Assembly (NCBI GenBank): GCA_945902215.1
Contig: CAMDML010000021.1
Span: 1-43,712 of the forward strand
Length of the DNA stretch: 43,712 nucleotides
Direction: 5' to 3'
From: Klebsiella pneumoniae
Lineage (GTDB): Bacteria; Pseudomonadota; Gammaproteobacteria; Pseudomonadales; Pseudohongiellaceae
Shown here: positions 21,499 through 41,090 of the stretch, one piece after another
Numbering within the stretch: the first letter of the stretch is position 1
How the letters are laid out: every line of letters begins with the position of its first letter
Made by a program: the position numbers and the translations under genes
The notes under the pieces: generated by a model
Told to the model about the DNA's origin: nothing
What the model saw: only the letters and a program-made list of their open reading frames with translations
Database searches by the model: none

Positions 21499-22488
21499 TC
21501 AGGGATTGAGGACTGTGCGGAAACCGATGTGTGAGGTACCGAGCCCCTTGCTCTGGCCCTGGCGCGCTTCCGGGCGGTAGCGCATGCAGTAGTTGGGAGC
21601 GCACAACCATGAGCCGCCTTTGATTACGGCTACTGCGTCATCCGGCTGGTTGGGATCAAAGCCTTCCGGAAAGTCTGCTTTTGCTGTGAAATCATGGCCT
21701 TGGTAGAAGGGACTTGCGGTCCATTCCCAGGCGTTCCCGATCAAGTCATAGAGGCCGAGCTCGTTGGCGCTATAACAACCCACCGGCGCGGTGCCGGAAT
21801 AACCGTCGAGCGCATCGTTCTGATAGGGAAAGAAGCCCTGCCAAGTATTGGAGGTAAACGCTCCCTCGGCATTCTTGCGCGCGCTGGTCTGCGCGGCAAA
21901 TTCAAACTGGGCCTCGGTCGGCAGGCTATGGCCCTTCCATTCCGCATAAGCGCTAGCGTCTTCGAAAGCGATATGGACTACCGGGTGCTGCTCCTGCCCA
22001 CTGATCGAAGAGGCGGGCCCTTCCGGATGGCGCCAGCTTGCGCCCGGGATGAGCTGCCACCAGTTCGCAAAGGGGTCCAGTGCACCATTGGTGAGAACAG
22101 GCTTGAACACGGCAGATCCGGCGATGGCGGGAGCGCCTGCTTCCGGGCTGCTGATACCGCGCTCGGCGAGCGTAAGGTAGCCGGTGGCATCGACGAATTC
22201 TGCAAACTGGGCGTTGGTGACTTCGGTCTGGTCCATCCAGAAACCTGACACCTGTTCCGGATGCGCGGGGCCTTCCTCACGGTAGGCATATTCGGCGCCC
22301 ATCGTGAAGGCCCCTCCGCCAAGCCAAACCATGCCTGCTTGGCTGGAGTCTCCTGCAGGTACAGTGCACGTGTTTGCAGCGATGTCTGTCGGGGCGCGCT
22401 CGAAACCGACCCAGTAGAGACTGCCGGCGAGAGCCAGACCGGTCAGGAGCAAGCCTGCCAAATTCAGTCCTGCCCGTTTCAGGCGCAT
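21499..22488 (-). CDS. Formylglycine-generating enzyme, membrane anchored
   Basis: SUMF1/FGE-family oxidase that converts the active-site cysteine of sulfatases to formylglycine. The 329-residue protein keeps both catalytic cysteines, Cys296 and Cys301, in GGSWLCAPNYCMRYRPEAR. It also has the family blocks GGGAFTMG (57-64), DQTEVTNAQFAEFV (86-99), LPTEAQFEFAA (189-199) and GNAWEWT (251-257). A basic start followed by a hydrophobic helix (residues about 9-27) predicts an inner-membrane anchor with the catalytic domain in the periplasm, or a signal peptide. Its ATG overlaps the sulfatase stop by one base (TGATG), so the two are coupled. Confidence 0.93.
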   Translation of the reverse strand: MRLKRAGLNLAGLLLTGLALAGSLYWVGFERAPTDIAANTCTVPAGDSSQAGMVWLGGGAFTMGAEYAYREEGPAHPEQVSGFWMDQTEVTNAQFAEFVDATGYLTLAERGISSPEAGAPAIAGSAVFKPVLTNGALDPFANWWQLIPGASWRHPEGPASSISGQEQHPVVHIAFEDASAYAEWKGHSLPTEAQFEFAAQTSARKNAEGAFTSNTWQGFFPYQNDALDGYSGTAPVGCYSANELGLYDLIGNAWEWTASPFYQGHDFTAKADFPEGFDPNQPDDAVAVIKGGSWLCAPNYCMRYRPEARQGQSKGLGTSHIGFRTVLNP

Positions 22489-24182
22489 CAGTAGATCACT
22501 CCATTGGCACTTGCGTATGCCTCCCAGCGCGTCAGCATGTCAGCAAATTTTTCCGGCATGGTTGTGCTCAGATCGTTCTGTTCAAAAGGATCTTGGTCAA
22601 TGTTAAACATCTGCCAGCGGCGCTGGTCAGCGGGCAGTGCCTGATCCCAGACGATTTTCCATTCACCCTGCCTGACGCTGCGATGACCGTACAGTTCCCA
22701 ACCAATGACTTCATCAGCTGTATGCACACCCTCGACTTCACCTGTGAGCAACGGTAACAGCGAGCGGCCTGTCGCAGGCAGAACCTCCTGGCCGCGATAG
22801 CTTGTGCCGGGATGTTCGGTACCTGCGAGCGCAAGGAAGGTTGGCAGCAGATCCATCACAGTGCCAAAGCCGGAGCTGCGCGAACCGGCGGCGACCTTCC
22901 CGCTGAAATGCACGAAGGCGGGCACATGAATGCCGCCTTCAAATGCGGTGGCTTTATGCCGGAAGAACGGCGTTGCGCTGGCGCTGGCCCAGTTGGCTCC
23001 GTACACGATGTAGGACGTGGCGCTGCCCAGATTTTCCAGACTGTGGTCATACGCCGTGCCGATCAGGTCGCGGATTGGCGGAGCAAGATCACGGCGCGAG
23101 GATTCTGCGCCATTGTCAGACATGAACATGATGAAGGTGTTGTCGAATTCATCGATCTCTTTGAGGTAGGCAACGACCTGGCCGATATACGTGTCGAGGT
23201 CGCTGACCATCGCCGCATAGATTTCCATGTGACGCGCCTCGATCTGTTTCGCTTCGGTGCTGAGCGTGTCCCAGCGTGGATTGTAGCGAGTGTCTGGAAT
23301 CGGTTCGGCATCGGCCGGAATCAGGCCCAGTTCCTTGCTGCGCGCAAAGCGGCTTGCGTAGAGTGCTTCATAACCGGCGTCGTATTGCCCTTTGAAGCGC
23401 GCGATTGATTCCTTGGGCGCTTGCAGCGGCCAATGCGGCGCGGTGTAGGCGAGATAGGCAAAGAATGGCTTGTTATCGGCGCGGTCTTCTTCGATGTACT
23501 GCAGCATGCGTTCGGTGTAGAAGCGGGTCGTGTAGAAATCATCGCCAACATGCACTAGTTCATCACCATCGCGATAGTCAGCCGGCTGCGGCCCGCGCCA
23601 GTCCCAACCGCCCAGATGTGCGGCGCCATCGAGCGACACAAAGGATTTCTTGAAACCGCGCGCGCGTGGTCCTGTTTCCACGTCGCCACCGAGATGCCAT
23701 TTGCCGGTCATGTAGGTGTTGTAACCGGCATCAGTCAGGAGGTCCGCGAGCGAAGCCACGCGAAAATTCAGATAACCGAGATAACCGCTTTGGTTCTTCT
23801 GGTCCTCGCGTGCCGGTGCCCCCATCACACCGAGTCCGGCCAGATGGCTGTCCATCCCTGACATCAGTTCGGCGCGCGTGGGTGAGCAAGTCAGGTTGGC
23901 ATAGAACTCAGTCAGCAGCAGGCCATTGGCGGCAAGTGCATCGAGATTGGGCGTGGGAATTTCGCTGCCGAAAATACCGAGGTCGGAATAACCCAGATCA
24001 TCTGCCAGGATGTACAGGATGTTGGGTCGAGCGTCTTCAGCCACAGTTGCTGCGGGCGCTGCTTGCTCCTCAGTGGGTGCTGCCGGTGGTTCGCTGCACG
24101 CATTGAGCAGCAACAAAGTGCCGCTACCCAGTAGCAACACGCGGCGAATTGAAGAGTGAGCCAGAAGTTCCGTGTGCGGCAT
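22488..24182 (-). CDS. Lipoprotein arylsulfatase, Cys type
   Basis: Sulfatase of the alkaline-phosphatase superfamily (564 residues) that hydrolyses a sulfate ester. The formylglycine signature is CSPTRAELMSG (Cys99 to Gly109), with metal-site DDLGYSD (61-67), KWHLGG and the MFMSDNGAESSRRD block also present. The lipobox LNAC (Cys29) after a hydrophobic segment predicts an exported lipoprotein. ATG at 24182 has GGAG seven bases upstream; a longer in-frame start at 24296 runs into the tetR gene and is rejected. The adjacent FGE is its likely maturase. The natural substrate cannot be named from sequence. Confidence 0.93.
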   Translation of the reverse strand: MPHTELLAHSSIRRVLLLGSGTLLLLNACSEPPAAPTEEQAAPAATVAEDARPNILYILADDLGYSDLGIFGSEIPTPNLDALAANGLLLTEFYANLTCSPTRAELMSGMDSHLAGLGVMGAPAREDQKNQSGYLGYLNFRVASLADLLTDAGYNTYMTGKWHLGGDVETGPRARGFKKSFVSLDGAAHLGGWDWRGPQPADYRDGDELVHVGDDFYTTRFYTERMLQYIEEDRADNKPFFAYLAYTAPHWPLQAPKESIARFKGQYDAGYEALYASRFARSKELGLIPADAEPIPDTRYNPRWDTLSTEAKQIEARHMEIYAAMVSDLDTYIGQVVAYLKEIDEFDNTFIMFMSDNGAESSRRDLAPPIRDLIGTAYDHSLENLGSATSYIVYGANWASASATPFFRHKATAFEGGIHVPAFVHFSGKVAAGSRSSGFGTVMDLLPTFLALAGTEHPGTSYRGQEVLPATGRSLLPLLTGEVEGVHTADEVIGWELYGHRSVRQGEWKIVWDQALPADQRRWQMFNIDQDPFEQNDLSTTMPEKFADMLTRWEAYASANGVIY

Positions 24183-24204
24183 GCAGGGTCTCCGGTATGC
24201 GTGG

Positions 24205-24927
24205 CTAAAGACTCTCAGGCCTTCTTGGTTGAAGACTCTCAGACCTTTTTGTTTTTTGTTGCTGCGGCTTTTTGTCTGGGGCTTGAATGCTGACAAGCTT
24301 TTCGAATTCCGAAATCAGCCTGAAGGCTCGGGTCAGTTCCTGAATAAACAGTTTCTGCCCCATGAATATCGGGCCGGGCTGGTTGATTAGAGTGCTGTTG
24401 ATCATGCCGAAGATCACCTGAAAGGCGAAAGAGACGTTAGCCTCATCTTCCTTGAGGAGCCTGTGGCCGGTCTCCTGAAAAATGCGCTCAAGGAAGCGGC
24501 CAGTGAATTCATGGCCATGCTTGCGAATAGGTTCCCAGAAGGCGGTATCACGCACACTGCGCACCAGCACTGAGCGCCAGAATTTACGGTGATCCCAGTA
24601 GTAGTTGACGACGTTGTTGATCAACTCGTCGAGCAGCGATTCGCGTGACAAGGTGGAAAAGAGATGCCGCTGGGTAGCGGTGCGGGTCTCCAGATGCCTG
24701 GCCACCAGCGCGTCGAAAAACTCATCCTTGCCGTGAAAGCGGGAGTAGAAGGCGCCAACCGAATAACCTGCAGTGCGTACCAATTCCGCGATGGAGATGT
24801 CCTGCAGATCGCGCTGTTCCAGCAGGCGAAAGCCGGCAGCGATCATGGCGTCGTAAGTGACCTGGCCGCGCTCTTGCTTAATGGCAATACCGAAAGTACG
24901 GGAGTTGCCGGGTTTGGGTTTGATCAC
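24205..24927 (-). CDS. TetR-family transcriptional regulator
   Basis: DNA-binding repressor type of 240 residues, with an N-terminal helix-turn-helix of the TetR class (residues about 25-70, ISIAELVRTAGYSVGAFYSRF) and a helical ligand domain. It starts with GTG at 24927, and the ribosome binding site is poor, so a later Met at residue 28 is possible. It lies 22 nt before the sulfatase on the same strand and probably controls that operon, the divergent POT transporter, or both. The last codons contain a 24-bp duplication that repeats ESL in the C-terminus. Confidence 0.88.
   Translation of the reverse strand: MIKPKPGNSRTFGIAIKQERGQVTYDAMIAAGFRLLEQRDLQDISIAELVRTAGYSVGAFYSRFHGKDEFFDALVARHLETRTATQRHLFSTLSRESLLDELINNVVNYYWDHRKFWRSVLVRSVRDTAFWEPIRKHGHEFTGRFLERIFQETGHRLLKEDEANVSFAFQVIFGMINSTLINQPGPIFMGQKLFIQELTRAFRLISEFEKLVSIQAPDKKPQQQKTKRSESLQPRRPESL
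24207..24250. repeat. 24-bp period duplication at the tetR 3' end
   Basis: Two near-identical copies begin AAGACTCTCAG at 24208 and 24232, offset by exactly 24 bases. The duplication is in frame with tetR and adds an eight-residue repeat to its C-terminus. It lies directly upstream of the sulfatase ribosome binding site. It is probably a replication-slippage product. Confidence 0.6.
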
Positions 24928-25130: not shown

Positions 25131-26882
25131 ATGCCTGCCATGTACCAAGCTGCCTCGCCTGCAAATACCACCAGTGCCAAAGCTACTATTCTGGGCCATC
25201 CGCGGGGACTCGTAATCCTGTTTCTCACGGAAATGTGGGAGCGCTTTTCGTATTACGGAATGCGCGGGTTGCTGATTCTTTACCTCACGCAGCATTTCCT
25301 TTTCAGCGACGCAAACTCCAACATCATTTACGGCGCATATACCGCGCTCGTCTATGTGATGACCATTGTTGGCGGTACCCTGGCCGACCGTTATCTGGGT
25401 TCGCGCAAGGCAGTTACCTTCGGCGCGATCCTGTTGGTGCTGGGTCATTTCGGCATGGCCTTCGAGGGCAGTGGTTCGCAACAGATCATGACGTACAACG
25501 GTGCGGAATACGTGGTAGGTCTCGATGGCCGCGGTGGCGATGCCACGCAGATCATCACCTCGGCACAGGGCGTATCGGAGATCAGCTTCAACGAAGGCGC
25601 CACCCAGATGCTGATCGGGAGTCCAGCTGCCGTCGGGTTGCCCGCGTCAATACCTGTAAATAGCTACACCACGCGTGTCGTAACCGAAACCTTCTACCTC
25701 AACCTCATGTATCTGTCGCTGGCCTTCATCATCGCCGGCGTCGGCTACCTCAAGGCCAACATTTCCACGATCGTCGGCACCCTGTATGGTTTCGGCGACA
25801 CCCGCCGCGATTCGGGCTTCACGATTTTCTACATGGGCATCAATCTTGGTGCCTTCCTATCTTCGGTGCTGTGCGGCTATCTCGGTATCACTTACGGGTG
25901 GAAATACGGTTTCGGTCTTGCTGGCATCGGCATGGTGCTTGGCCTGACCATTTTCCTGAGATGGCAGCACTGGTTGGAAGGCCGCGCCGAGCCGCCGGAT
26001 CCCGCACTGCTGAAGAAAAAAGTGCTGGGCCCCTTCAATGTTGAAATCCTGTGTTATCTGGCCGGAATCTGCATCATCGTCCTGTCGATGCTGCTGGTGA
26101 TGAACTCGCATCTGGTGCATGAAGGTTATGTCGGCTTGCTGGGCATTCTGATCTTTGCGGTATTGCTGTGGTATTCGTTCGTCACCTGTAGCAAGGGTGA
26201 AGAGCGCGACCGCATGCTGGCCGCCATGTATTTTATTCTAGCGCAGATTCCGTTCTGGGCGCTGTTTGAACAAGCAGGCTCTTCCTTGAATCTGTTCACT
26301 GACCGGCTTGTCGACCGAACCATGCTCGGCATGTCCGTGCCTGCGCCGGTGTTCCAGTCACTCAACGCCATGTATATCGTGCTGTTCGCGCCAATAATGG
26401 CGTGGATGTGGATCGCGCTGGCACGCCGCAAACGGAATCCCTCAGCACCAGTAAAATTCGCGCTCGGTGTGTTCATGGCCGGCCTTGGTTTTCTCGCGTT
26501 GGTGGCCGGTATCAAACTGTCGGGACCTGCTGGCATGACCTCGGTCTACTTCATTTTCCTGATCTACTGGATTCACACGATTGGTGAACTGATGGTGTCA
26601 CCGGTTGGACTTTCGGCAGTCACCAAGCTGGCGCCGGCGAAAGCCGTGGGCATGACGATGGGGGCCTGGTTCCTGTACAGCGGTCTGGCCAATTACCTGT
26701 CCGGTGTCATCGCTGCGACGACCGGAGCGGAAACGATTGGTGGCCAGTTGACCGACACGGTGGCGGCCAAGGCCACCTATATCGACGTCTATAGTTCGGT
26801 GGGTTATATCGCGTTGGCGGTCGCGGTCGGCATGCTCTTGATCTCGCCGCTGATCCGCAAAATGATGCATGGAACCGACTGA
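25131..26882 (+). CDS. POT/PTR2-family peptide transporter
   Basis: Proton-coupled oligopeptide transporter of the inner membrane (583 residues, about 14 helices). The start of the first helix carries the POT signature EMWERFSYYGMRGLLILYL, with the E-x-x-E-R-F/x-Y motif at residues 34-42. FYMGINLGAFLSS and the FALFEQ-like ALFEQAGSSLNLF block are also present. A 60-residue loop after the third helix is predicted to be external. Start 25131 or 25140 are both possible. It imports di- or tripeptides in characterised relatives. Divergent placement from tetR suggests possible co-regulation. Confidence 0.93.
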   Translation: MPAMYQAASPANTTSAKATILGHPRGLVILFLTEMWERFSYYGMRGLLILYLTQHFLFSDANSNIIYGAYTALVYVMTIVGGTLADRYLGSRKAVTFGAILLVLGHFGMAFEGSGSQQIMTYNGAEYVVGLDGRGGDATQIITSAQGVSEISFNEGATQMLIGSPAAVGLPASIPVNSYTTRVVTETFYLNLMYLSLAFIIAGVGYLKANISTIVGTLYGFGDTRRDSGFTIFYMGINLGAFLSSVLCGYLGITYGWKYGFGLAGIGMVLGLTIFLRWQHWLEGRAEPPDPALLKKKVLGPFNVEILCYLAGICIIVLSMLLVMNSHLVHEGYVGLLGILIFAVLLWYSFVTCSKGEERDRMLAAMYFILAQIPFWALFEQAGSSLNLFTDRLVDRTMLGMSVPAPVFQSLNAMYIVLFAPIMAWMWIALARRKRNPSAPVKFALGVFMAGLGFLALVAGIKLSGPAGMTSVYFIFLIYWIHTIGELMVSPVGLSAVTKLAPAKAVGMTMGAWFLYSGLANYLSGVIAATTGAETIGGQLTDTVAAKATYIDVYSSVGYIALAVAVGMLLISPLIRKMMHGTD

Positions 26883-26984: not shown

Positions 26985-29114
26985 ATGGCAAAGATGAGAC
27001 TGCTCACAATTTCCCTGATGTCAGCACTGCTGGTGGCCTGTGGCGGCAGCGATGAGACTTCCGCACCCGCCGCGCCGGATGAAGCGCAAAGTGTTGCACC
27101 TGCCGCCGCCGCTGTCTCCGAAGCGCGTCTTGAAAATTCCGCAAGCGAGCCCGGCCAGTGGATGACGTATGGCGGTTCCTACAAAGAGCAGCGTTTCAGC
27201 CAGCTGACACAGATCACGCCTGACAATATCAGCCAGCTCGGTTTGGCCTGGTTTGCTGACCTCAATACCAACCGTGGGCAGGAATCCACTCCCTTGTTCA
27301 TCGACGGCGTGATCTACGTGTCCGAGCCTTGGAGCAAAGTGAATGCGTATGACGCGCGCACTGGCGCCTTGCTGTGGCATTACGATCCGAAAGTGCCAGG
27401 TGAGTTCGGTGCACGCGGCTGTTGCGATGTCGTCAACCGCGGGGTGGCGGCATGGAATGGCAAAATTTATGTGGGCGCCTACGACGGTCGCCTGATTGCG
27501 CTTGATGCTGCCACCGGCCAAGAAGTGTGGAGCACGATCACCACCGACCAGTCCAAGTACTACACGATTACTGGCGCGCCCCGTGTTGCCAACGGCAAAG
27601 TCTTTATCGGTAACGGCGGCGCCGAATATATTTATCGCGGTTACATTGGTGCCTATGATGCCGAAACCGGCGAACAGCTCTGGCGCTTCTACACAGTGCC
27701 CGGCAACCCGGCAGACGGATTTGAAAATGCGGCGATGGAAATGGCGGCTGCCACTTGGTCGGGCAACTGGTGGGAAAAAGGTGGAGGCGGTTCCACATGG
27801 GATGCCATTACCTATGACCCGCAAACCAATCTTGTGCTGTTTGGAGTTGGCAACGGTGCGCCGTGGAATGCACTTGCCCGCAGCCCGCAAGGTGGCGACA
27901 ACCTGTTCACAGTATCCGTTGTGGCAGTTGATGCCGACACTGGCGAATACCGCTGGCACTATCAGGAAATTCCGGCTGAAGAGTGGGACTACGATGCCGT
28001 ACAGCAGATCACGATTGCTGACATCGACGTCAATGGCACTGTGCGGCACGTAGCAATGCAAGCCACCAAGAGCGGTTACTACTACATGCTCGATGTTGCC
28101 ACCGGCGAATTGCTGGTGGCGGAAAATTTTGTCCCGGTGAACTGGACCACAGGTTACGATCTTGCCACCGGCCGTCCCGTCATCAACGAAGCCGCGCAGT
28201 ACACGAAGGCCGAAGGTCCGCGCATCGCGCAGCCTGGTCCGGCTGGCGCGCATGCCTGGCACCCGATGGCATACAGCCCGATCACCGGTTTACTCTATAT
28301 CCCGGGACGTGAAAGCAGCATTGCCTACACGGCCAACCCGAACGCCAGTCTCGGCAACTTCAACCTGAACGTGGATTTCTTCGGTGGCGACGCGGCCTAC
28401 GATGATCCTGCCAACACCATTCCGCGCGGCGGCGATACCAAGGTGATCGCGTGGGATCCGGTGCGCGGCGCAGAAGTGTGGAGTGCTGCGCGCTCCTCAG
28501 GCGGCCCGGCCGGTATGCTGGCCACTGCGGGCAATCTGGTGTTCACCGGCAACCCGGCTGATCAGATCATGCAAGCTTTCCGCGCCGACAACGGTGAGCA
28601 GGTCTGGTCGTACCCAATTCAGGCCGGCATTTCCGCCGGATCTATTTCCTTTGAACTGGATGGTGAACAGCACATTGCCCAAGTTGTGGGCGGGCAATCA
28701 CAGGGCGGCTACTACGCGCCGACCCATGCAAGACTGCTGATCTTCAAGCTCGGCGGTACTGCGCAACTGCCACCGAACGCCGAGTACACCCAAGCTCCTT
28801 ACAGCCCACCGGAACAGTTTGCCACGGCGGATGAAGTAACCCAGGGCGGGCAGATCTACGGCAATGCCTGCGCCATCTGCCATGGTGATGGTGGTACCAG
28901 TCGCGGTATGTTCCCGGATCTGCGCCGTTCCGCGCTGCTGCAGAGTCAGGAAGCTTTCGATCAGGTAGTGCTGGAAGGCATCCGCGCTGAACGTGGCATG
29001 ACTGCATTTGCCGGCCAGCTGACGACTGCGGAAACCTCACTGATTCGCGCCTACATGACCGACAGGGCAATTGCTGCCCGTGACGCACCCCCGTTAGCAC
29101 CTCCGGGACAGTAA
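26985..29114 (+). CDS. Quinohemoprotein alcohol dehydrogenase, DYD (lanthanide-type) motif
   Basis: PQQ-dependent dehydrogenase of the methanol/ethanol family, oxidising an alcohol or aldehyde in the periplasm. The 709-residue protein has a lipoprotein signal (LLVACG, Cys19), an eight-bladed propeller (about 50-590) and a fused C-terminal cytochrome c (CAICH, Cys629/Cys632/His633; likely axial Met672). The vicinal disulfide Cys146-Cys147 is present. Metal-site residues are Glu214 (GGAE), Asn290 (GNG) and catalytic Asp335 in EEWDYDAVQQ. The extra Asp337, two residues on, matches the lanthanide-coordinating Asp of XoxF and PedH. No PQQ-biosynthesis genes are in the window. An NTF2-like gene follows 28 nt later. 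Confidence 0.93.
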   Translation: MAKMRLLTISLMSALLVACGGSDETSAPAAPDEAQSVAPAAAAVSEARLENSASEPGQWMTYGGSYKEQRFSQLTQITPDNISQLGLAWFADLNTNRGQESTPLFIDGVIYVSEPWSKVNAYDARTGALLWHYDPKVPGEFGARGCCDVVNRGVAAWNGKIYVGAYDGRLIALDAATGQEVWSTITTDQSKYYTITGAPRVANGKVFIGNGGAEYIYRGYIGAYDAETGEQLWRFYTVPGNPADGFENAAMEMAAATWSGNWWEKGGGGSTWDAITYDPQTNLVLFGVGNGAPWNALARSPQGGDNLFTVSVVAVDADTGEYRWHYQEIPAEEWDYDAVQQITIADIDVNGTVRHVAMQATKSGYYYMLDVATGELLVAENFVPVNWTTGYDLATGRPVINEAAQYTKAEGPRIAQPGPAGAHAWHPMAYSPITGLLYIPGRESSIAYTANPNASLGNFNLNVDFFGGDAAYDDPANTIPRGGDTKVIAWDPVRGAEVWSAARSSGGPAGMLATAGNLVFTGNPADQIMQAFRADNGEQVWSYPIQAGISAGSISFELDGEQHIAQVVGGQSQGGYYAPTHARLLIFKLGGTAQLPPNAEYTQAPYSPPEQFATADEVTQGGQIYGNACAICHGDGGTSRGMFPDLRRSALLQSQEAFDQVVLEGIRAERGMTAFAGQLTTAETSLIRAYMTDRAIAARDAPPLAPPGQ

Positions 29115-29142: not shown

Positions 29143-29538
29143 ATGAAGTCTGCACTTGAACGGTATTACCAGTTTTTCAACGCAGCGAACTACGACGGCA
29201 TGCTCGCGCTGCTGGCGGAAGACGTATTGCACGAACCCAGTCAAGGTGAGCCGCGCCGGGGCAAACAGATGTTTCGCGAATTCCTGCAACACATGGAACG
29301 CTGCTATAAAGAGCAGGTGCATGACCCGGTCATCATGGTTAGCACCGATGGCGCGCGTGCGGCTGCCGAATTCATGCTGAGCGGGACCTACTTGCACACC
29401 GACAGTGATCTGCCTCCGGCAACCGGGCAGCAATATCAGCTGCGTGTTGGCACTTTCTTCGAATTCGCCAATGGCCGCATCACCCGCGTGAGCAACCACT
29501 ACAACTTGCCGCACTGGTTGCAGCAGATATCGCTATAA
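29143..29538 (+). CDS. NTF2-like / ketosteroid-isomerase-related protein
   Basis: A 131-residue cone-fold protein of the SnoaL/NTF2 superfamily. The start ALERYYQFFNAANYDGMLALL and the end RITRVSNHYNLPHWLQQISL match the steroid-isomerase-related subgroup. No signal peptide, so cytoplasmic. The reaction is unknown. It directly follows the quinohemoprotein and may share its transcript, possibly handling an oxidation product (inference). Confidence 0.75.
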   Translation: MKSALERYYQFFNAANYDGMLALLAEDVLHEPSQGEPRRGKQMFREFLQHMERCYKEQVHDPVIMVSTDGARAAAEFMLSGTYLHTDSDLPPATGQQYQLRVGTFFEFANGRITRVSNHYNLPHWLQQISL

Positions 29539-33263: not shown

Positions 33264-33391
33264 GACCTTACCACTTACATAGGGCACCATAAGGCAGCAT
33301 CGGACATGATGTTCTGATTGTTCTGGCAGTTCCTGAAGTACAAATTGCACAGATAGTAAAAGTGCGTATGCCAACCAGCCGGTCAGAGCTC

Positions 33392-33721
33392 ATGAAAACG
33401 ATCCTGTCCATTTTTCTGCTTTCCCTGTTTTCTGTGGCCTTGCTTCCGGTAGCCGCACTGCAGGCCGCCGAAGTGGTGCAGCCGCAGAATTTGCTGCCAC
33501 CTTCTTCCGAGCGCAGCGCAGAACGAAGCGCAGAACAGGACTCGCGCATCAGTCGTGACGAAGCTTCCAATATCGCCAAACAGAATTTTCCAGGCGAGGT
33601 GCGCAGTATCCGCCGTGACAACCAGAATTGGCGCATCCGCCTTGACCAGGATGGTGCCGTGTCAGATGTGCTCGTCAACGCCGATTCTGGACGTGTGTCG
33701 CGTCCGACCGGCGGCCAATAA
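33392..33721 (+). CDS. PepSY-domain periplasmic protein
   Basis: A 109-residue exported protein with a signal peptide (ILSIFLLSLFSVALLPVAAL) and a single PepSY domain (residues about 54-103, ISRDEASNIAKQNFPGEV to VNADSGRV). The start is ATG at 33392; an upstream in-frame start at 33362 would interrupt the signal peptide. PepSY proteins encoded before PhoP/PhoQ-like systems are thought to modulate the sensor. It lies 42 nt before the response regulator. Confidence 0.85.
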   Translation: MKTILSIFLLSLFSVALLPVAALQAAEVVQPQNLLPPSSERSAERSAEQDSRISRDEASNIAKQNFPGEVRSIRRDNQNWRIRLDQDGAVSDVLVNADSGRVSRPTGGQ

Positions 33722-33763: not shown

Positions 33764-34447
33764 ATGCGTTTACTGATAGTCGAAGACGAAGATCTGCTGC
33801 GCGCGCGTCTAGTGAAGGCGCTTGGCGACAGTGGTTATGTTGTCGACAGTGCCAGTAATGGCAAAACCGGCCTGTTCGAAGCCACTGAAAACGATTATGA
33901 CGCCGCAATCATTGATCTCGGCCTGCCAGAACTTGATGGTATCGGTCTCATCAAGGCACTGCGCGCAAAGGGTCGCACGTTTCCTGTGTTGATCCTCACT
34001 GCGCGCGATAACTGGACCGATAAGGTCGCTGGCCTCGACGCAGGCGCCGACGATTATGTCGTCAAACCATTTCAGATCGAGGAGATCAAGGCGCGTCTCA
34101 ACGCGCTATTGCGCCGCGCAGCCGGCTTCGCCAAGCCAACTCTGGATTTTGCGCATCTGAGTCTCGACACCACGGCGCGCAAACTGCAAGTGGCTGGCGT
34201 TGATGTGGAACTCACCGCTTACGAATACAAAGTGCTGGAATACCTGATGCTGCACCCCGGCAAGGTGGTTTCCAAAACTGAACTCACTGAACACCTCTAC
34301 GATCAGGATCACGACCGCGACAGCAATGTGCTGGAAGTGTTCATCCGCCGTTTGCGCCAGAAACTCGATCCCGACGAGACCCTCAAGCCCATCGATACGA
34401 TTCGCGGTCAGGGCTATCGCTTCAATGTCCCCACTCGGCAAGGCTGA
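33764..34447 (+). CDS. OmpR/PhoP-family response regulator
   Basis: Two-component transcription factor of 227 residues. The receiver domain (1-115) has the acidic pocket EDED (7-10), phospho-acceptor Asp51 in IIDLGLPELDG, Thr79 and Lys101 (VVKPF). The winged-helix DNA-binding domain (about 130-222) includes LTAYEYKVLEYLMLHPGKVV and RGQGYRF. Sequence is closest in feel to PhoP/QseB-type regulators. It overlaps the kinase start by 23 nt, so the pair is co-translated. Confidence 0.93.
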   Translation: MRLLIVEDEDLLRARLVKALGDSGYVVDSASNGKTGLFEATENDYDAAIIDLGLPELDGIGLIKALRAKGRTFPVLILTARDNWTDKVAGLDAGADDYVVKPFQIEEIKARLNALLRRAAGFAKPTLDFAHLSLDTTARKLQVAGVDVELTAYEYKVLEYLMLHPGKVVSKTELTEHLYDQDHDRDSNVLEVFIRRLRQKLDPDETLKPIDTIRGQGYRFNVPTRQG

Positions 34448-35804
34448 ATCCCGCTATTCCCTGCAAAGACGCCTCGTGCTGGCGTCAGGTGTGCTGTTGA
34501 TTCTGTTTCTGGGGTTGGCCGGCCTTGTGCTTGATCGTGCCTATCAGGAAAGTGTTGTCGCAGCGGTTGAAGAGCGTTTGCAATTACAGGTATACGCCCT
34601 GTTGGGTGTTGCCGAACCGGATGGCGAGGGTTTTTTCATACCTGATCTGGAAGAAGCGCGCTTTGCCCAAATCGATTCCGGCTTATACGGTTTCATTCTC
34701 GACAGGAGTGGCATGGAAGCGTGGCGCAGCCCGTCGGCGCTTAATCTCCGGCTTGCCGACAGTGGTTACGAAGTCGGTGAAATCGTGCGTGGCGAGACCT
34801 CCTATGGCAGCCTGGACTCACGCGAACTGGGCCCGCTGTCCTGGGCTTCGTATGGCACGTATTGGGAATCGCAGGACAACATCTACGAATTTGTCGTACT
34901 GGAATCCACGGCGCCGACGCAGGCGCAGATTCGCGAATTCCGGTACAACCTGTATCAATGGTTTGGTGCCATGGCGGTGTTTCTGTCCATTGCCCAATAC
35001 CTGCTGTTACGCTGGGGGCTGCGCCCGTTGCAGCAGCTGGCAGCTGATGTATCTGCCATTGAAGCAGGCGCACAGGATGCGATGCAGCGCAACTACCCGG
35101 ACGAATTGATAGCCGTTACTGATAATCTCAATTTGCTGATCAAAAGCGAGCGTGATCGTCAGGCGCGTTACCGCACTACCCTTGGTGATCTTGCACACAG
35201 CCTGAAGACTCCACTCGCGGTGCTGTCGACCGCGCTGCAGGAAATGAAACGCGAAAGCAGTTTTACTGACCAGCATCGTCGCGACATGGAAGAGCAGGTC
35301 GAACGCATGGACCAGATCGTGTCATACCAGCTCAAACGTGCTACCAAGCACAATCATCATCAGTTGCTTGCCAAACCGGTGCCGGTGGCGCCGGTGTTGC
35401 AGCGTATCCTGGCCGCACTCGCCAAGGTTTATCGTGACAAGCAGATCGAAACAGTTAAGGAGTTCGCGGAAAGCGCGGTGTTTTACGGTGAGGAAAGCGA
35501 CCTGATGGAGTTGTGCGGCAACCTGCTCGACAACGCCTTCAAATACGGTTCATCACGCCTTGAAGTGAAAGCCACTATGCGTGGCGGCACACTGTTGCTT
35601 GAAATCAATGACGATGGTCCTGGTATTGCCGAAGCCGATAGACACTGGGTACTGGAACGTGGCGCGCGCGCCGATACCGTGAAAAGTGGTCAAGGTATTG
35701 GCCTGGCAGTTGCGGTGGATATCGTCAGTGCCTATGGTGGGGAAATCCGCGTCGAAAAGAGCCAGTGGGGCGGCGCCAGACTCAAGGTTCGGCTAGGAGC
35801 GTGA
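34425..35804 (+). CDS. PhoQ-like sensor histidine kinase
   Basis: Inner-membrane sensor of 459 residues. It has membrane segments at about 17-37 and 175-195, and a periplasmic sensor domain between them with acidic patches (EPDGEGFFIPDLEEARF). A HAMP-like linker leads to the phosphorylated His258 in LGDLAHSLKTPLAVL and an ATPase domain with ELCGNLLDNAFKYG, DDGPG (396-400) and GQGIGLA (422-428). The acidic sensor recalls PhoQ, which senses divalent cations and cationic peptides; the signal here is unproven. A farther in-frame start at 34326 would lie deep in the regulator gene and is rejected. Confidence 0.92.
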   Translation: MSPLGKAESRYSLQRRLVLASGVLLILFLGLAGLVLDRAYQESVVAAVEERLQLQVYALLGVAEPDGEGFFIPDLEEARFAQIDSGLYGFILDRSGMEAWRSPSALNLRLADSGYEVGEIVRGETSYGSLDSRELGPLSWASYGTYWESQDNIYEFVVLESTAPTQAQIREFRYNLYQWFGAMAVFLSIAQYLLLRWGLRPLQQLAADVSAIEAGAQDAMQRNYPDELIAVTDNLNLLIKSERDRQARYRTTLGDLAHSLKTPLAVLSTALQEMKRESSFTDQHRRDMEEQVERMDQIVSYQLKRATKHNHHQLLAKPVPVAPVLQRILAALAKVYRDKQIETVKEFAESAVFYGEESDLMELCGNLLDNAFKYGSSRLEVKATMRGGTLLLEINDDGPGIAEADRHWVLERGARADTVKSGQGIGLAVAVDIVSAYGGEIRVEKSQWGGARLKVRLGA

Positions 35805-36383: not shown

Positions 36384-36511
36384 GATCTTCCCTCCTCTTT
36401 AGGTACGGCTGCAGTCTAGAAGTGCGTGCCTGAATCCATCCTGAACATTGTTTGCACGGAGGTGGCTGGGGTAAGCTCGGTCCCCATTCAAGGCCTAAGG
36501 GGAGCGTGTCG

Positions 36512-38662
36512 ATGAAAAACCAAATTGTGGTGTTGGGACTGGGGCTGCTGGCACTGGTTGGCTGCGGCCAGTCCGACAATGCAGCCCTGACGCCAGCGCC
36601 TCCAGAAGCACCCCTCACTACAGAGAGCGCAGCAACACCCTCCGGTTTCGCTGCCGTTTCCGCAGAGCGTCTCCTCAATGCCGACGCTGAACCTCAGCAA
36701 TGGATGGCCACCGGCCGTACTTATAGTGAACAGCACTACAGTCCGTTGACGCAGGTCGACCGCACTAACGCCGGCACGCTCGGACTCGCGTGGTACGCCG
36801 ACTTCAATATTCCGCGCGGTCAGGAATCCACCCCCCTTGTTGTTGATGGTGTTATCTATGTGACCACGGCGTGGAGCAACGTGCGTGCCTTCGATGCCGC
36901 CACCGGTGCCGCGTTGTGGGAGTTCGATGCGGAAGTGCCGGGCGAGTGGGGCGTGCGCGCTTGCTGCGATGTGGTGAATCGTGGCGCTGCGCTCTGGAAC
37001 GGCAAGGTCTATGTCGGCACCATCGACGGCCGCATGATCGCCATTGACGCCGCCACCGGCACCAAGGTCTGGGAAACCGACACGCTGATTTCGCGTGATG
37101 TGTCCTATTCAATCACCGGCGCGCCGCGTGTGGTGAAGGGCAAAGTCATTATTGGCAATGGTGGTGCCGAGTACGGTGTGCGTGGTTATGTGTCCGCGCT
37201 GGATGCAGAAACTGGCGCACTTTTGTGGCGTTTCTTCACGGTGCCGGGCGACCCCGCGCTCGGTTTCGAGAATGCTGCGATGGAAATGGCAGCGGCCACC
37301 TGGAGCGGTGAATGGTGGAAGCTCGGCGGTGGCGGCACGGTGTGGGATTCGATGGCTTACGATCCCGAACTCGATCTGCTCTACATCGGCACCGGCAACG
37401 GCTCGCCATGGAATCAGGATTTGCGCAGCCCGGGTGGGGGCGACAACCTGTTCCTCTCGTCCATTGTTGCGCTCGATCCCGACGACGGCGCGTACAGGTG
37501 GCACTACCAGACCACCCCCGGCGAGACCTGGGACTACACCGCGACCCAGCCGATCATGGTGGCCACGCTGCCGATTGACGGTATCGAACGCAAGGTAGTG
37601 ATGCAGGCGCCGAAGAACGGTTTCTTCTATGTGCTTGATGCCGCCAGCGGTGAGTTTCTCTCTGCGCAAGCCTTCGCCAATGTGAACTGGGCCTTCGGTA
37701 TCGACCAGGACACGGGCCGCCCCATCGAAAATCCCGCCGCGCGCTTCGACAAAACGGGCAAGGCTTTTGCTGTACAACCAGCTCCATCGGGTGCGCACAA
37801 CTGGCAGCCGATGGCCTTCAATCCTGCCAATGGCATGGTGTATCTCTCATCCACCGACAGTGCATTTATCTACGCGTATGACCGCACCTTCGAGCCGAAT
37901 CCGCTGACCTCCAATCTGGGTGTGGACACCGCAGCAGGCGCTGTCGAGTTGGGCCCTAATGCCACGGCAGATCTGCCGAGCGGTACCTACATGGTGGCGT
38001 GGAATCCTGTCACGCAGCAGGAAGGCTGGCGTATTCCCGGCGCGTCTGCCGGTATGCTGGCTACCGCCGGTGGCCTCGTGTTCAAGGGCGGCCAGAATGG
38101 TCTTGCTGCGTATGATGCCGACAATGGCACTGAGTTGTGGAAATCACTGGATACGCAAACTGGTGTGGTTGCCGCGCCGGTGACCTACGAGGTGAATGGC
38201 GAGCAGTATGTCGCAGTGGTCGCGGGTCGCTCCAGCGGGAATTACTACGCGCCGGATTATTCGCGCCTGCTTGTGTTTAAGCTGGGGGCGACTGTGCAAC
38301 TGCCGCCACCGGTTGAATTCACTGCGCCAACATTGAATCCGCCGCCGTCGACAGCAAGCCCTGAACAAATTGCGCGCGGTGAAGATTTTTATCTGGATAA
38401 CTGCTGGATTTGCCACAGCGATGTCGGCAATGCCGGCGGCTTGCTGCGGCGCGGGTTGTTTCCTGAACTCGCCGTGTCACCGGCACTCGCCAGTCCCGAA
38501 CTCTTTGCTGCGGTCGTGCTGGAAGGTGTGCGCGCGCAGAATGGCATGGTGTCGTTCGCAAACATCCTGACGCCCGAGGGCGCCGAGGATGTGCGTGCTT
38601 ATCTGATCGAACGCGCGAATGTCGCCCTGCAGCAACAGCAGGCGGCGCGGGCAGGGCGTTAG
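36512..38662 (+). CDS. Quinohemoprotein alcohol dehydrogenase, DYT (calcium-type) motif
   Basis: Paralogue of the PQQ dehydrogenase at 26985 (716 residues). It has a lipoprotein signal (LALVGCG, Cys18), a propeller domain, vicinal Cys151-Cys152 and fused cytochrome c (CWICH, Cys631/Cys634/His635; likely axial Met679). Metal and catalytic residues are Glu220, Asn296 and Asp341 in GETWDYTATQPIMV. Thr343 replaces the extra Asp of the first enzyme, as in calcium-dependent type II quinohemoproteins. ATG at 36512 sits seven bases after AAGGGGAG; an upstream ATG at 36452 is rejected because it would bury the signal peptide. Confidence 0.93.
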   Translation: MKNQIVVLGLGLLALVGCGQSDNAALTPAPPEAPLTTESAATPSGFAAVSAERLLNADAEPQQWMATGRTYSEQHYSPLTQVDRTNAGTLGLAWYADFNIPRGQESTPLVVDGVIYVTTAWSNVRAFDAATGAALWEFDAEVPGEWGVRACCDVVNRGAALWNGKVYVGTIDGRMIAIDAATGTKVWETDTLISRDVSYSITGAPRVVKGKVIIGNGGAEYGVRGYVSALDAETGALLWRFFTVPGDPALGFENAAMEMAAATWSGEWWKLGGGGTVWDSMAYDPELDLLYIGTGNGSPWNQDLRSPGGGDNLFLSSIVALDPDDGAYRWHYQTTPGETWDYTATQPIMVATLPIDGIERKVVMQAPKNGFFYVLDAASGEFLSAQAFANVNWAFGIDQDTGRPIENPAARFDKTGKAFAVQPAPSGAHNWQPMAFNPANGMVYLSSTDSAFIYAYDRTFEPNPLTSNLGVDTAAGAVELGPNATADLPSGTYMVAWNPVTQQEGWRIPGASAGMLATAGGLVFKGGQNGLAAYDADNGTELWKSLDTQTGVVAAPVTYEVNGEQYVAVVAGRSSGNYYAPDYSRLLVFKLGATVQLPPPVEFTAPTLNPPPSTASPEQIARGEDFYLDNCWICHSDVGNAGGLLRRGLFPELAVSPALASPELFAAVVLEGVRAQNGMVSFANILTPEGAEDVRAYLIERANVALQQQQAARAGR

Positions 38663-38679: not shown

Positions 38680-40692
38680 TCAGTAACGGTACCGCACGCC
38701 GGCTTCCACCGAACGCCCGGCCTCCGGCGCAAAGCCGCGCAGGTAGGAGGTGGACAGCCGGATCTCCTCGTTCGCGAGATTGCGACCTTTGATGAATATC
38801 ATGAGTTCGACGCCCCTCTCTGTGTTGATGGTGTAATCCGCGCCGAGATCCAGCCGCGACCAGGAATCCGTGGCGAGTTCGAAGGTGCCGGGTTCGTCCT
38901 GCTCGTCGCCGTGAATCAGCGTTACGTAAGCCGACCATGCTTGCCCTGCCAGTTCACCATTCAGAATCAGTTCTGCTCCAACATGGTTTGGGGGCAGGCG
39001 CGGTGCAGCGCCGTTCTTGTCAAAGCGGCCTTCGATGGTATCTCCAAACAAGCGCAGGGTAGCCAGATCGTTCAGTTGCAAGCTGGCATCTACCTCGATG
39101 CCGCTGAAACGGGCGTCGTCCTGTTGGTAGCGCCGCACCGGGATACCAGCTGCTGCCTCCCCGCTCGTGATTTGGCCAATGTAATCGGCAAAGCGGTTGT
39201 GGAAGCCGGTGATCGTAGCGGTGAAGGCGCCATAGTCGAGATACAGCGTCAGGTCAGTGTTCAGAGAAGTTTCCTCACTAAAGTTCGTATTGCCGATTTC
39301 GCAGGAGCCGGTGGCGAGATGGATAACACAAGCGTCCAGGTCAGCCAGCCCGTAATTCGAGTAAAGCTCCTCGGTGGAGGGTGCGCGTTGCGAGCGGGAA
39401 ACTGCCAGCCCGAACGTCAGCGGCTCGGAAATATCCCATAAGGCCGAAGCCGACAGGCTCGTCGTCGAATAATCCCGGCTGGGTGCAGCGCTGGCCTGCG
39501 GGCTGTAGTCATCCCTGTTGATGCGCGCCCCGATTTCAAATGTAAGCGGGTTGAGGTGAAAGTCTTCAACGACGAACAGTCCCTGTGAGCCGATGTCGGT
39601 GGCCGGAATAAAACTTTCTTCCCCGACCGCAGCGAACTCCTCGTTGCCGAGTTGCAGGCCGACAACGCCATGTCTTTCAGCATTGTCCGTGTGCGTTACC
39701 TGCAGGCGTTGTAGCCAGGCATCGTTGCTGAATTGGGTGCCGATAGCTCCATCTTCTTCGATTTCGGCGTGTGCATAGTCGGTATGACTGAGGCGGTAAC
39801 TCACGGTTTCCGCCCATGGCGCCAGCCCGTGCCATTCACTGTTGAGGTCATAGCGTGTGCGATCCATGTCGATGGCAACGAATTCAGCTTCCGCGCCGGG
39901 TGGCAGGCCGTAGGTGTTGTCCAGACGGTTGACTGCGAAGCCCACGAAACCGTTTGGCAGAATCCATGACACGCCGGCAGTTCCCGTTTTGGTTTCCCCG
40001 CCGGTGTTGGCAACGTAGCCGGAGGTGTTGGCATTTGCCGCGTCATCTTCAAGGTACGCAGGATCTGCCGCGAATCCCGGGATATCGAGATCGTTCCACT
40101 CGCGTTGTACCGCGTCGAGGTGCCAGGCAAAGTTGCCGGTGGCAAAATCGACACTGCCAACCGCTGTGCCGATATCTGCGGCAGAGTCGTGGCGCGCTTC
40201 AAACGCAAAAGAGGGCGCATCGGGCAGGGTCGTGGCGATGCGATTATCGATGACGTTAACCACACCGCCGATCGCACCGCCGCCATACAGCAAGGTGGAG
40301 GGGCCGCGCAGCACTTCGATCCCCTTCGCGAGTATCGCCTCCACGGTTTGCGCGTGGTCGGCCGAGTTGCCGGAGGCATCAGCGTTCGGCATGCCGTTGC
40401 TGAGATTCATCACGCGCCGGCCCTGCTGGCCACGAATCACGGTCTGCCCCACGGCGGGACCAAAGGAGGCATTGCTGATGCCGGGCTGTCCGGCCAGCGT
40501 GTCGCCGAGCGTGGAACGCACGGCATCGTGGAGTTCCTTGTCACTTAACACAGTGACTGGCAGTGCGGTTTCAGAGCGACGCACGTGGATGGCAGTGGTG
40601 ATCAGTTCGTAAATTTCGTCTTCCTGTGCCTGCACGACGGAAGTAATGGCGAGCGCGAGTACACTAACTGGAATAATCAGGATGCGGTTCAT
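38680..40692 (-). CDS. TonB-dependent receptor, ZnuD-like (probable zinc/metal uptake)
   Basis: Outer-membrane transporter of 670 residues. It has a signal peptide (MNRILIIPVSVLALAITSVV), a plug domain (about 40-160: LPVTVLSDKELHDAV, VIRGQQGRRV, IEVLRGPSTLLYGGGAIGG) and a beta barrel ending in aromatic AGVRYRY. The segment pattern RLSHTDYAHAEIE, GAIGTQFSND and FAAVGEESFIPAT resembles zinc-regulated receptors of the ZnuD type. Start 40692 is chosen by the signal peptide; the frame stays open to 40968 without support. It follows a small Cys/His protein on the same strand, supporting metal uptake. Convergent with the second quinohemoprotein, 17 nt apart. Confidence 0.85.
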   Translation of the reverse strand: MNRILIIPVSVLALAITSVVQAQEDEIYELITTAIHVRRSETALPVTVLSDKELHDAVRSTLGDTLAGQPGISNASFGPAVGQTVIRGQQGRRVMNLSNGMPNADASGNSADHAQTVEAILAKGIEVLRGPSTLLYGGGAIGGVVNVIDNRIATTLPDAPSFAFEARHDSAADIGTAVGSVDFATGNFAWHLDAVQREWNDLDIPGFAADPAYLEDDAANANTSGYVANTGGETKTGTAGVSWILPNGFVGFAVNRLDNTYGLPPGAEAEFVAIDMDRTRYDLNSEWHGLAPWAETVSYRLSHTDYAHAEIEEDGAIGTQFSNDAWLQRLQVTHTDNAERHGVVGLQLGNEEFAAVGEESFIPATDIGSQGLFVVEDFHLNPLTFEIGARINRDDYSPQASAAPSRDYSTTSLSASALWDISEPLTFGLAVSRSQRAPSTEELYSNYGLADLDACVIHLATGSCEIGNTNFSEETSLNTDLTLYLDYGAFTATITGFHNRFADYIGQITSGEAAAGIPVRRYQQDDARFSGIEVDASLQLNDLATLRLFGDTIEGRFDKNGAAPRLPPNHVGAELILNGELAGQAWSAYVTLIHGDEQDEPGTFELATDSWSRLDLGADYTINTERGVELMIFIKGRNLANEEIRLSTSYLRGFAPEAGRSVEAGVRYRY

Positions 40693-40799
40693 GTTCAGTT
40701 CCCATAATCTTGGACTACATAAATGCGGGTCCGGCCTGAAGTGCAGCTGCGCACATAAGGCACAGACTGAAACAGGGAGAGGATCCCCACGGTTTCGGA

Positions 40800-41090
40800 T
40801 CAGGAGAACAAACGGGGAGGAGCGCGGCCTTGATAGGGAGAAGGGGAGGTTACTGCGTAAAACTGGCGAAGCGCCGGCCCGACCTGCGCCGCAGCGGCGC
40901 TCGAGGGCAGGGTAAGCTGGTGCTGTACCAGCGCATCGTCGCTGAGCTGTAAATGACACAACGCGCAATCGATCGCTTCTTGTGTGTGATCGTGCAGCGG
41001 CGAAGCCTGAACAAGCTGCACGCCGACCAGCGTGAACGCCATCAAGGCGATCAGCAGGAAGCGGCGCAAGTGTCGGTAACGGTTCAACAT
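40800..41090 (-). CDS. DUF2946-like small exported protein with CxxCH
   Basis: A 96-residue protein with an N-terminal hydrophobic signal (RRFLLIALMAFTLVGVQLV). Metal-ligand candidates follow just after it: SPLHDHTQEAIDCALCHLQL has two His and a C-x-x-C-H. Proteins of this shape beside zinc-responsive TonB receptors are often proposed as periplasmic metal chaperones. Encoded directly upstream of the ZnuD-like receptor. No Shine-Dalgarno is visible before its ATG, which lies in the innermost copy of a 23-bp tandem repeat. A single covalent heme at CxxCH is less likely because the rest does not resemble cytochrome c. Confidence 0.7.
   Translation of the reverse strand: MLNRYRHLRRFLLIALMAFTLVGVQLVQASPLHDHTQEAIDCALCHLQLSDDALVQHQLTLPSSAAAAQVGPALRQFYAVTSPSPYQGRAPPRLFS

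Follow-up and report, generated by a model that had tools for sequence, protein, structure and literature searches.

The window analysed here, a 43,712-nucleotide stretch of DNA (contig CAMDML010000021.1), encodes at positions 26985..29114 of the forward strand a quinohemoprotein alcohol dehydrogenase of 709 amino acids, dependent on pyrroloquinoline quinone (PQQ) and carrying a D-x-D metal motif. Our reading of the sequence, to which we give a probability of roughly two in three, is that the protein belongs to the type II lineage and oxidises alcohols (or aldehydes), and that its metal site has shifted from the calcium type, with the ligands E-N-D-T, to the lanthanide type, E-N-D-D. The closest solved relatives have a calcium-type pocket, which suggests that a lanthanide-type pocket evolved again in the lineage of this protein. 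Most likely, the enzyme is PedH-like at its metal site and resembles a type II quinohemoprotein in its electron transfer.

Domain organisation and predicted lipid anchor

The open reading frame (ORF) translates without internal stops. The protein scores 563.5 bits with TIGR03075, the PQQ methanol/ethanol family (curated cut-off 480.05), and lies above the cut-off of the propeller family PF01011. Its C-terminus matches the cytochrome c family PF13442 with 35.2 bits (cut-off 27). This region contains a CAICH heme c attachment site (residues 629-633, 28869..28883) and Met672 (28998..29000), which we take to be the likely axial heme ligand. All features of the protein given here lie on the forward strand.

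For comparison we used an alignment of 214 rows, of which 189 were retained. The 25 rows dropped are 16 short ones, L203 and L227, which have no Asp at column 335, and L024-L030, removed by name. At position 337, two residues past the catalytic Asp, the 173 heme-bearing rows contain 103 Thr, 63 Asp, 5 Asn, 1 Pro and 1 Ser. In the following, Asp and Thr rows are named after this residue, and the large Asp clade comprises 54 heme-bearing Asp rows, among them the window protein. Met672 is a Met in all of these 54 rows, in 103/103 Thr rows and in the 9/9 other heme-bearing Asp rows.

The N-terminus, MAKMRLLTISLMSALLVACGG, corresponds to a signal sequence (26985..27041) with the lipobox LLVAC, a pattern that ends at Cys19, the predicted lipidation site. 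The protein is probably lipid-anchored in the periplasm. The lipobox pattern is found in 10 of the 11 rows of the window clade, the exception being L084, whose match spans residues 124-707 only. Among heme-bearing rows it occurs in 40/63 Asp versus 61/103 Thr rows. The pattern does not separate the two groups, indicating that anchoring is independent of the Asp. Type II quinohemoprotein alcohol dehydrogenases are soluble periplasmic proteins, from which the window protein would differ by its lipobox, a prediction from the sequence pattern.

The metal site and its surroundings

The predicted metal site is formed by Glu214 (27624..27626), Asn290 (27852..27854) and the two acidic residues of the Asp335-Tyr336-Asp337 motif (27987..27995), the first being the catalytic Asp and the second the lanthanide-type Asp. 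Glu214 aligns with the Glu of PedH, 1kv9 and 1kb0, while Asn290 is an Asn in 103/103 Thr rows and in 54/54 rows of the large Asp clade. Between residues 303 and approximately 342 there is no gap in the alignments to 1kv9 (WDFT), 1kb0 and 1yiq (both WDYT) or PedH (6zcv, WDFD), and Asp337 falls into the column of the extra lanthanide Asp, Asp325 in PedH and Asp301 in XoxF. In the structures of XoxF and PedH the ligands are E-N-D-D, and both oxygens of the extra Asp bind the metal (PMC11845868). An initial annotation of the window, made from the sequence without database searches, had named these four ligands as well as the CAICH motif and the lipobox. Its residue numbers are exact in the translation and the alignment, and its assignment of Asp337 to the lanthanide-ligand position is borne out.

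The E-N-D-D set is present in 54/54 rows of the large Asp clade. The remaining 9 heme-bearing Asp rows divide into 4 with E-N-D-D and 5 with D-N-D-D, and the Thr rows into 92/103 with E-N-D-T and 11/103 with D-N-D-T. In the window clade of the 189-row tree all 11 rows have Asp at 337 together with the Glu and Asn ligands. A chance occurrence of D-x-D can be ruled out from the 54/54 and 11/11 counts. Among the non-heme rows of the 189-row set, Asp occupies position 337 in 15 of 16, with L206 carrying a Ser.

The pocket around these ligands is only partly like that of known lanthanide enzymes, as judged by alignment: the window protein has Ala213, Thr361 and Ala424. The residue preceding the Glu ligand is Gly171 in XoxF and Ala in MxaF (PMC11845868). 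At this position, 213, we find Ala in 87/103 Thr rows and Gly in 15/15 non-heme Asp rows, and the large Asp clade is mixed (22 Ser, 18 Gly and 14 Ala, n=54). Residue 361 is Pro in 103/103 Thr rows, 13/54 large-clade Asp rows and 0/15 non-heme Asp rows; the Lys beside it aligns with an Arg of PedH that we presume to be a PQQ contact. Asn at 424 is found in 92/103 Thr, 1/54 large-clade Asp and 12/15 non-heme Asp rows. Over 5 independent pairs, residue 361 changes the same way with D337 in about 3.9 (never against), 213 in about 3.2 and 424 in 0.9. None of these co-changes is significant, which is impossible below 6 pairs.

Part of this pattern fits a calcium or promiscuous-metal enzyme, in which the extra Asp is tolerated or tunes the redox potential or the substrate fit, as it may do in membrane glucose dehydrogenases with D-x-D. 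The initial annotation had taken the second Asp as diagnostic for lanthanides. This holds in so far as the residue binds the metal in XoxF and PedH, but D-x-D is also present in membrane glucose dehydrogenase. Complexes of this enzyme with Ca, Mg, Zn and Sr are reported, although the same authors predict facultative lanthanide use for it (PMC11996626). The calcium-like Ala213, the Thr of the closest solved relatives, all type II enzymes, and the distant own-genome proteins L024-L030, which have D-x-D without the full ligand set in an uncertain alignment, point in the same direction. What speaks against such an enzyme is that the window protein has the complete ligand quartet of the PedH/XoxF site, which is conserved in 54/54 rows, and that the crystal structures of XoxF and PedH show the extra Asp in bidentate contact with the metal. 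We consider it unlikely. The lanthanide-dependent lipoprotein quinohemoprotein of the initial annotation is thus upheld in its ligands, predicted lipoprotein nature and heme motif, whereas the dependence itself must be stated with more caution, as D-x-D alone is no proof and Ala213 is calcium-like.

The replacement of Asn424 in 53/54 rows of the large Asp clade and the very high number of paralogues could also indicate a PQQ-propeller lipoprotein that is catalytically inactive or repurposed for a structural role. The ligand set, catalytic Asp, heme motif and Met672 are, however, conserved across genera, and the TIGR03075 score exceeds the cut-off, which makes this explanation very improbable.

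In the mechanism that we favour, E214, N290, D335 and D337 would hold a trivalent light lanthanide that activates PQQ in the propeller. D335 would act as the base, with hydride transfer to PQQ. Electrons would then pass from PQQ to the enzyme's own C-terminal heme c and on to a downstream acceptor, so that the first step could proceed without a separate XoxG- or PedF-type cytochrome.

The vicinal pair Cys146-Cys147 (27420..27425), placed by alignment, is present in 103/103 Thr rows and 44/54 large-clade Asp rows. Ten heme-bearing D-x-D rows lack the pair (L017, L048, L049, L050, L051, L053, L139, L144, L145 and L151). In the quinohemoproteins L218, L220, L225, L226 and L229, the residue two positions past the catalytic Asp is Asn (WDFN/WDYN), which corresponds to neither the calcium nor the lanthanide motif.

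Comparison with known enzymes

The best solved matches of the window protein are 1kv9 (618 bits), 1yiq (581), 8gy2 (557; presumably a type III-like dehydrogenase subunit) and 1kb0 (552), followed at lower scores by PedH (6zcv, 329 bits) and the best XoxF (296). All four top matches have Thr two residues past the catalytic Asp, where PedH and the window protein have Asp. As in the type II enzymes 1kv9, 1yiq and 1kb0, a single chain combines the PQQ propeller with a C-terminal cytochrome c, the vicinal Cys pair and the Glu, Asn and Asp ligands. The proteins can be aligned across approximately 650 residues, and the alignment with 1kv9 continues through the heme domain. Unlike these enzymes, the window protein has Asp for Thr at 337 and replacements of Pro361 and Asn424, and is a predicted lipoprotein. 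Since the calcium-type site with Thr at this position belongs to the type II pattern, we regard it as a variant and not as a typical member.

With PedH/ExaF (alcohol dehydrogenase type 2b; PedH 6zcv, 6zcw) the window protein shares the E-N-D-D ligands and the vicinal Cys pair. PedH, in contrast, has no C-terminal heme motif; the residue preceding its Glu ligand is Gly, positions 361-362 are Asp-Arg, and position 424 is Asn. The E-N-D-D set is also shared with XoxF (6dam, 4mae, 6oc5), according to a published table (PMC11845868) and the Sinorhizobium meliloti row L204, which is taken for XoxF by its gene neighbours. L204 differs in having no C-terminal heme motif, and the XoxF enzymes score at most 296 bits and form a separate tree branch. 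None of the PedH and XoxF-like rows compared has a C-terminal CxxCH, in agreement with the initial annotation, which had described both enzymes as devoid of a fused cytochrome.

Membership in XoxF or PedH is ruled out by the lower bit scores, the separate branches, a topology test (p 0.008, see below) and Ala213 in place of Gly. By descent, as far as alignment and tree can tell, the window protein is a member of the type II quinohemoprotein alcohol dehydrogenase lineage. The alignment and tree placement proposed in the initial annotation confirm D337 at the position of the PedH Asp, but lead to type II (1kv9, 618 bits) and not to PedH or XoxF.

Phylogeny of the D-x-D motif

All trees were built without the motif columns. 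We used FastTree for the 189 rows and IQ-TREE (LG+C20) for a set of 97 of them, chosen by hand to cover the range of subclades (48 Thr, 46 Asp, 2 Asn and 1 Ser). In a further careful IQ-TREE run on the 97 rows, the columns around 213, 361 and 424 were also removed. The sample leaves out some partial matches, for example G002:C14, G017:C251 and G010:C6.

In all three trees the window protein and its orthologues lie in a mostly-Asp clade that is nested among Thr enzymes. With motif and nearby columns removed, this clade consists of 32 of the 97 rows (30 Asp, 2 Thr), with bootstrap/SH-aLRT (Shimodaira-Hasegawa-like approximate likelihood ratio test) support of 100/98. The equivalent clade is supported by 99 in the LG+C20 tree of the 97 rows and by 97 in the FastTree tree of 189 rows, where it comprises 56 rows (54 Asp, 2 Thr). 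The 87 heme-bearing rows, which include 1kv9 and 1kb0, are separated from the 10 non-heme rows by one branch (100/99) in the 97-row trees, which do not contain L021-L023. The tree requires six switches between Asp and Thr, of which well-supported branches force at least 5 (bootstrap range 5-7). The Thr rows L045 and L083 lie inside the mostly-Asp clade, and L170 is a lone Asp row whose sister is the Thr row L171 (100/100).

Three groupings were rejected by the approximately unbiased (AU) test. Placing the 36 heme-bearing Asp rows in one clade lowers the log-likelihood by 646.8 (p 1.9e-12), and a single clade of the 48 Thr rows lowers it by 624.0 (p 0.0011). A grouping in which the 10 non-heme Asp rows share one side of a branch with the 30 Asp rows from the clade of the window protein costs 98.8 (p 0.008).

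When the tree is rooted on the non-heme enzymes, the simplest history would let the main heme clade start out with Thr. Asp would then have been regained at three sites: in the window's clade, in a group formed by L059, L061, L163, L166 and L168, and in L170. The likeliest reading is that enzymes of the calcium-type lineage regained the Asp, on three or more occasions provided that the root is correct. The Asp of the window protein would in that case have arisen in a Thr-bearing clade and would not be inherited from XoxF- or PedH-like ancestors.

If D-x-D were instead ancestral for PQQ alcohol dehydrogenases, the window protein would have kept it and Thr would have arisen many times. The prevalence of Asp in non-heme rows (15/16) and the published view that lanthanide-dependent methanol dehydrogenase is old fit this history, as do the heme-bearing own-genome Asp proteins L021-L023, which branch outside the 170-row heme clade. 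The AU tests argue against it, as they reject both a single Thr clade and a joint placement of the non-heme Asp enzymes and the window's clade. Moreover, keeping Asp along the whole backbone needs many separate losses, where 6 changes suffice. We regard this history as unlikely.

Several observations weigh against a calcium-to-lanthanide shift in the window protein. D-x-D is insufficient as proof of lanthanide dependence, because membrane glucose dehydrogenase has the motif and is reported with calcium and other metals. Ala213 is the state of most Thr rows, where non-heme Asp rows have Gly. Ala424 stands where Thr and non-heme Asp rows mostly have Asn, so the pocket does not simply reproduce that of PedH or XoxF. 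Some nodes near the base of the heme clade have low support (40/34, 55/93), and the ancestral state consequently depends on rooting and parsimony. The position of L021-L023 outside the 170-row heme clade of the 189-row tree, together with their omission from the 97-row trees, weakens the rooting argument. The AU groups were defined only after a first tree had been seen. Finally, the TonB-dependent receptor of the window is nearest to ZnuD.

Occurrence in the genome, genus and class

The window's own genome comprises 2.85 Mb in 107 contigs. Of the PQQ dehydrogenase genes that TIGR03075 detects in it, we classified 22 (L009-L030), leaving out the low-scoring L031 and L032. D-x-D is combined with a C-terminal CxxCH in 8 of the 22, namely the window protein, L014, L015, L017, L019, L021, L022 and L023; in L021 the Glu ligand is replaced by Asp. 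Three (L009, L010 and L011) combine D-x-T with the C-terminal CxxCH. The other 11 have D-x-D without it. Of these, L012, L016 and L018 carry E-N-D-D and L020 has Asp for Glu, while in the distant L024-L030 the Glu, the Asn or both are missing at the aligned ligand columns, where the alignment is uncertain. The combination of D-x-D with a fused cytochrome, which had initially been singled out as notable, is thus common in this lineage (8/22 genes of the own genome and 63/173 heme-bearing rows).

Among 35 loci taken from genome contigs, a C-terminal heme motif accompanies D-x-D in 16 and D-x-T in 11, and the other 8 are partial or lack the heme motif. TIGR03075 matches above the cut-off occur in 11/11 genomes of the genus. 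When 274 genomes were drawn evenly from the class and at most 4 candidates per genome were scored, 16 genomes (own genome included) matched the window protein at E 1e-120 or better. Outside the own genome, 23 loci from this search were aligned. D-x-D was found in none of the 22 that show the motif region; the residue is T, S or N.

PQQ supply

Searches of the own genome yielded neither PqqB nor PqqC, although for PqqB no positive-control genome exceeded the cut-off either; for PqqE there were weak matches only, below the cut-off. PqqC was found in 0/11 genomes of the genus, several of which are incomplete, and exceeded the cut-off in 12/57 genomes of the set, indicating that the PqqC search works. 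Because PqqB and PqqC were not found, the organism probably imports PQQ. PQQ import has been described as a strategy of many Gram-negative bacteria (PMC12124388). With at least 22 PQQ dehydrogenase genes in 2.85 Mb and neither PqqB nor PqqC detected, the own genome, viewed together with its genus, has the appearance of a PQQ importer.

It is possible, and we propose it tentatively, that lanthanide dependence re-evolved at least three times in calcium-type type II enzymes and gave rise to a self-wired (heme-fused), membrane-anchored class of lanthanide alcohol dehydrogenases that expanded in apparently PQQ-importing Gammaproteobacteria. Such a re-evolution would run opposite to the usually assumed direction from lanthanide to calcium, and it is relevant to the view that lanthanide use came first. 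Should the window's clade use lanthanides, a heme-fused architecture would be added to the lanthanide dehydrogenases. L170 (Asp) and L171 (Thr), and the Thr rows L045 and L083 in the mostly-Asp clade, would then represent natural pairs for calcium-to-lanthanide site changes.

Relation to published surveys

In the literature searched on lanthanides and quinohemoproteins, as far as its text was accessible, we found no description of a heme-fused lanthanide-type dehydrogenase. Voutsinos et al. 2025 reported D-x-D in 61% of 6,328 ocean PQQ dehydrogenases, metal heterogeneity in families once thought to be calcium-only, and genomes with up to 70 D-x-D enzymes (PMC11996626). Their set resembles ours in that the prediction is motif-based and D-x-D spans many PQQ dehydrogenase families. 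The main text contains neither 'cytochrome' nor 'fused', and 'quinohemoprotein' appears once, in the references; the heme-fused group is thus not described in that text, but may be among the sequences. According to the same paper, Keltjens et al. 2014 had anticipated that lanthanide-binding alcohol dehydrogenases would prove more diverse, so that novelty can be claimed for the heme-fused group only within limits.

Neighbouring genes

A POT-family peptide transporter (25131..26882, forward strand, PF00854) lies directly upstream of the dehydrogenase gene. A SnoaL-like, ketosteroid-isomerase-related protein (29143..29538, forward strand, above the cut-off of TIGR02096) is encoded 28 nt downstream, and its gene is possibly co-transcribed with that of the dehydrogenase. 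The downstream order continues with LemA, an M48 peptidase, a PepSY protein, an OmpR-type two-component system and a D-x-T paralogue of the dehydrogenase. Six orthologous loci of the genus were compared, and the same 5 of them keep the transporter, the SnoaL-like gene and the response regulator farther downstream. The sixth, L044, is a second copy in one genome and has none of the three. In L197, from a second genus, the transporter is directly upstream and the SnoaL-like gene was not found.

The two-component system (33764..35804, forward strand) consists of an OmpR-type response regulator and a histidine kinase (PF00072, PF00486, HisKA, HATPase_c) and is located between two quinohemoprotein genes. 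The second of these (36452..38662, forward strand), approximately 7 kb downstream, encodes a paralogue that is 53% identical to the window protein and carries Thr in the diagnostic column (WDYT). One other orthologous locus, L194, showed a paralogue in the corresponding place. PedH and PedE form the lanthanide switch of Pseudomonas putida. In its gene order, the Asp/Thr pair of the window, with a regulator in between, is reminiscent of this switch.

Just upstream of the two-component system, a short PepSY-domain protein with a signal-like start is encoded (33362-33721). Its position is kept in the genus loci, with an identity of only 30-50%. Lanpepsy has PepSY domains as well. It is mentioned as a lanthanide-binding protein in PMC11996626.

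Beside the D-x-T paralogue, the reverse strand encodes a TonB-dependent receptor (38680-40968). Its role as an importer of PQQ or lanthanides is not supported, as its best matches are ZnuD-like, with 344 bits against a curated cut-off of 950. Farther upstream in the window, also on the reverse strand, are a sulfatase with an adjacent sulfatase-modifying-factor-like protein and a TetR regulator (21499-24296).

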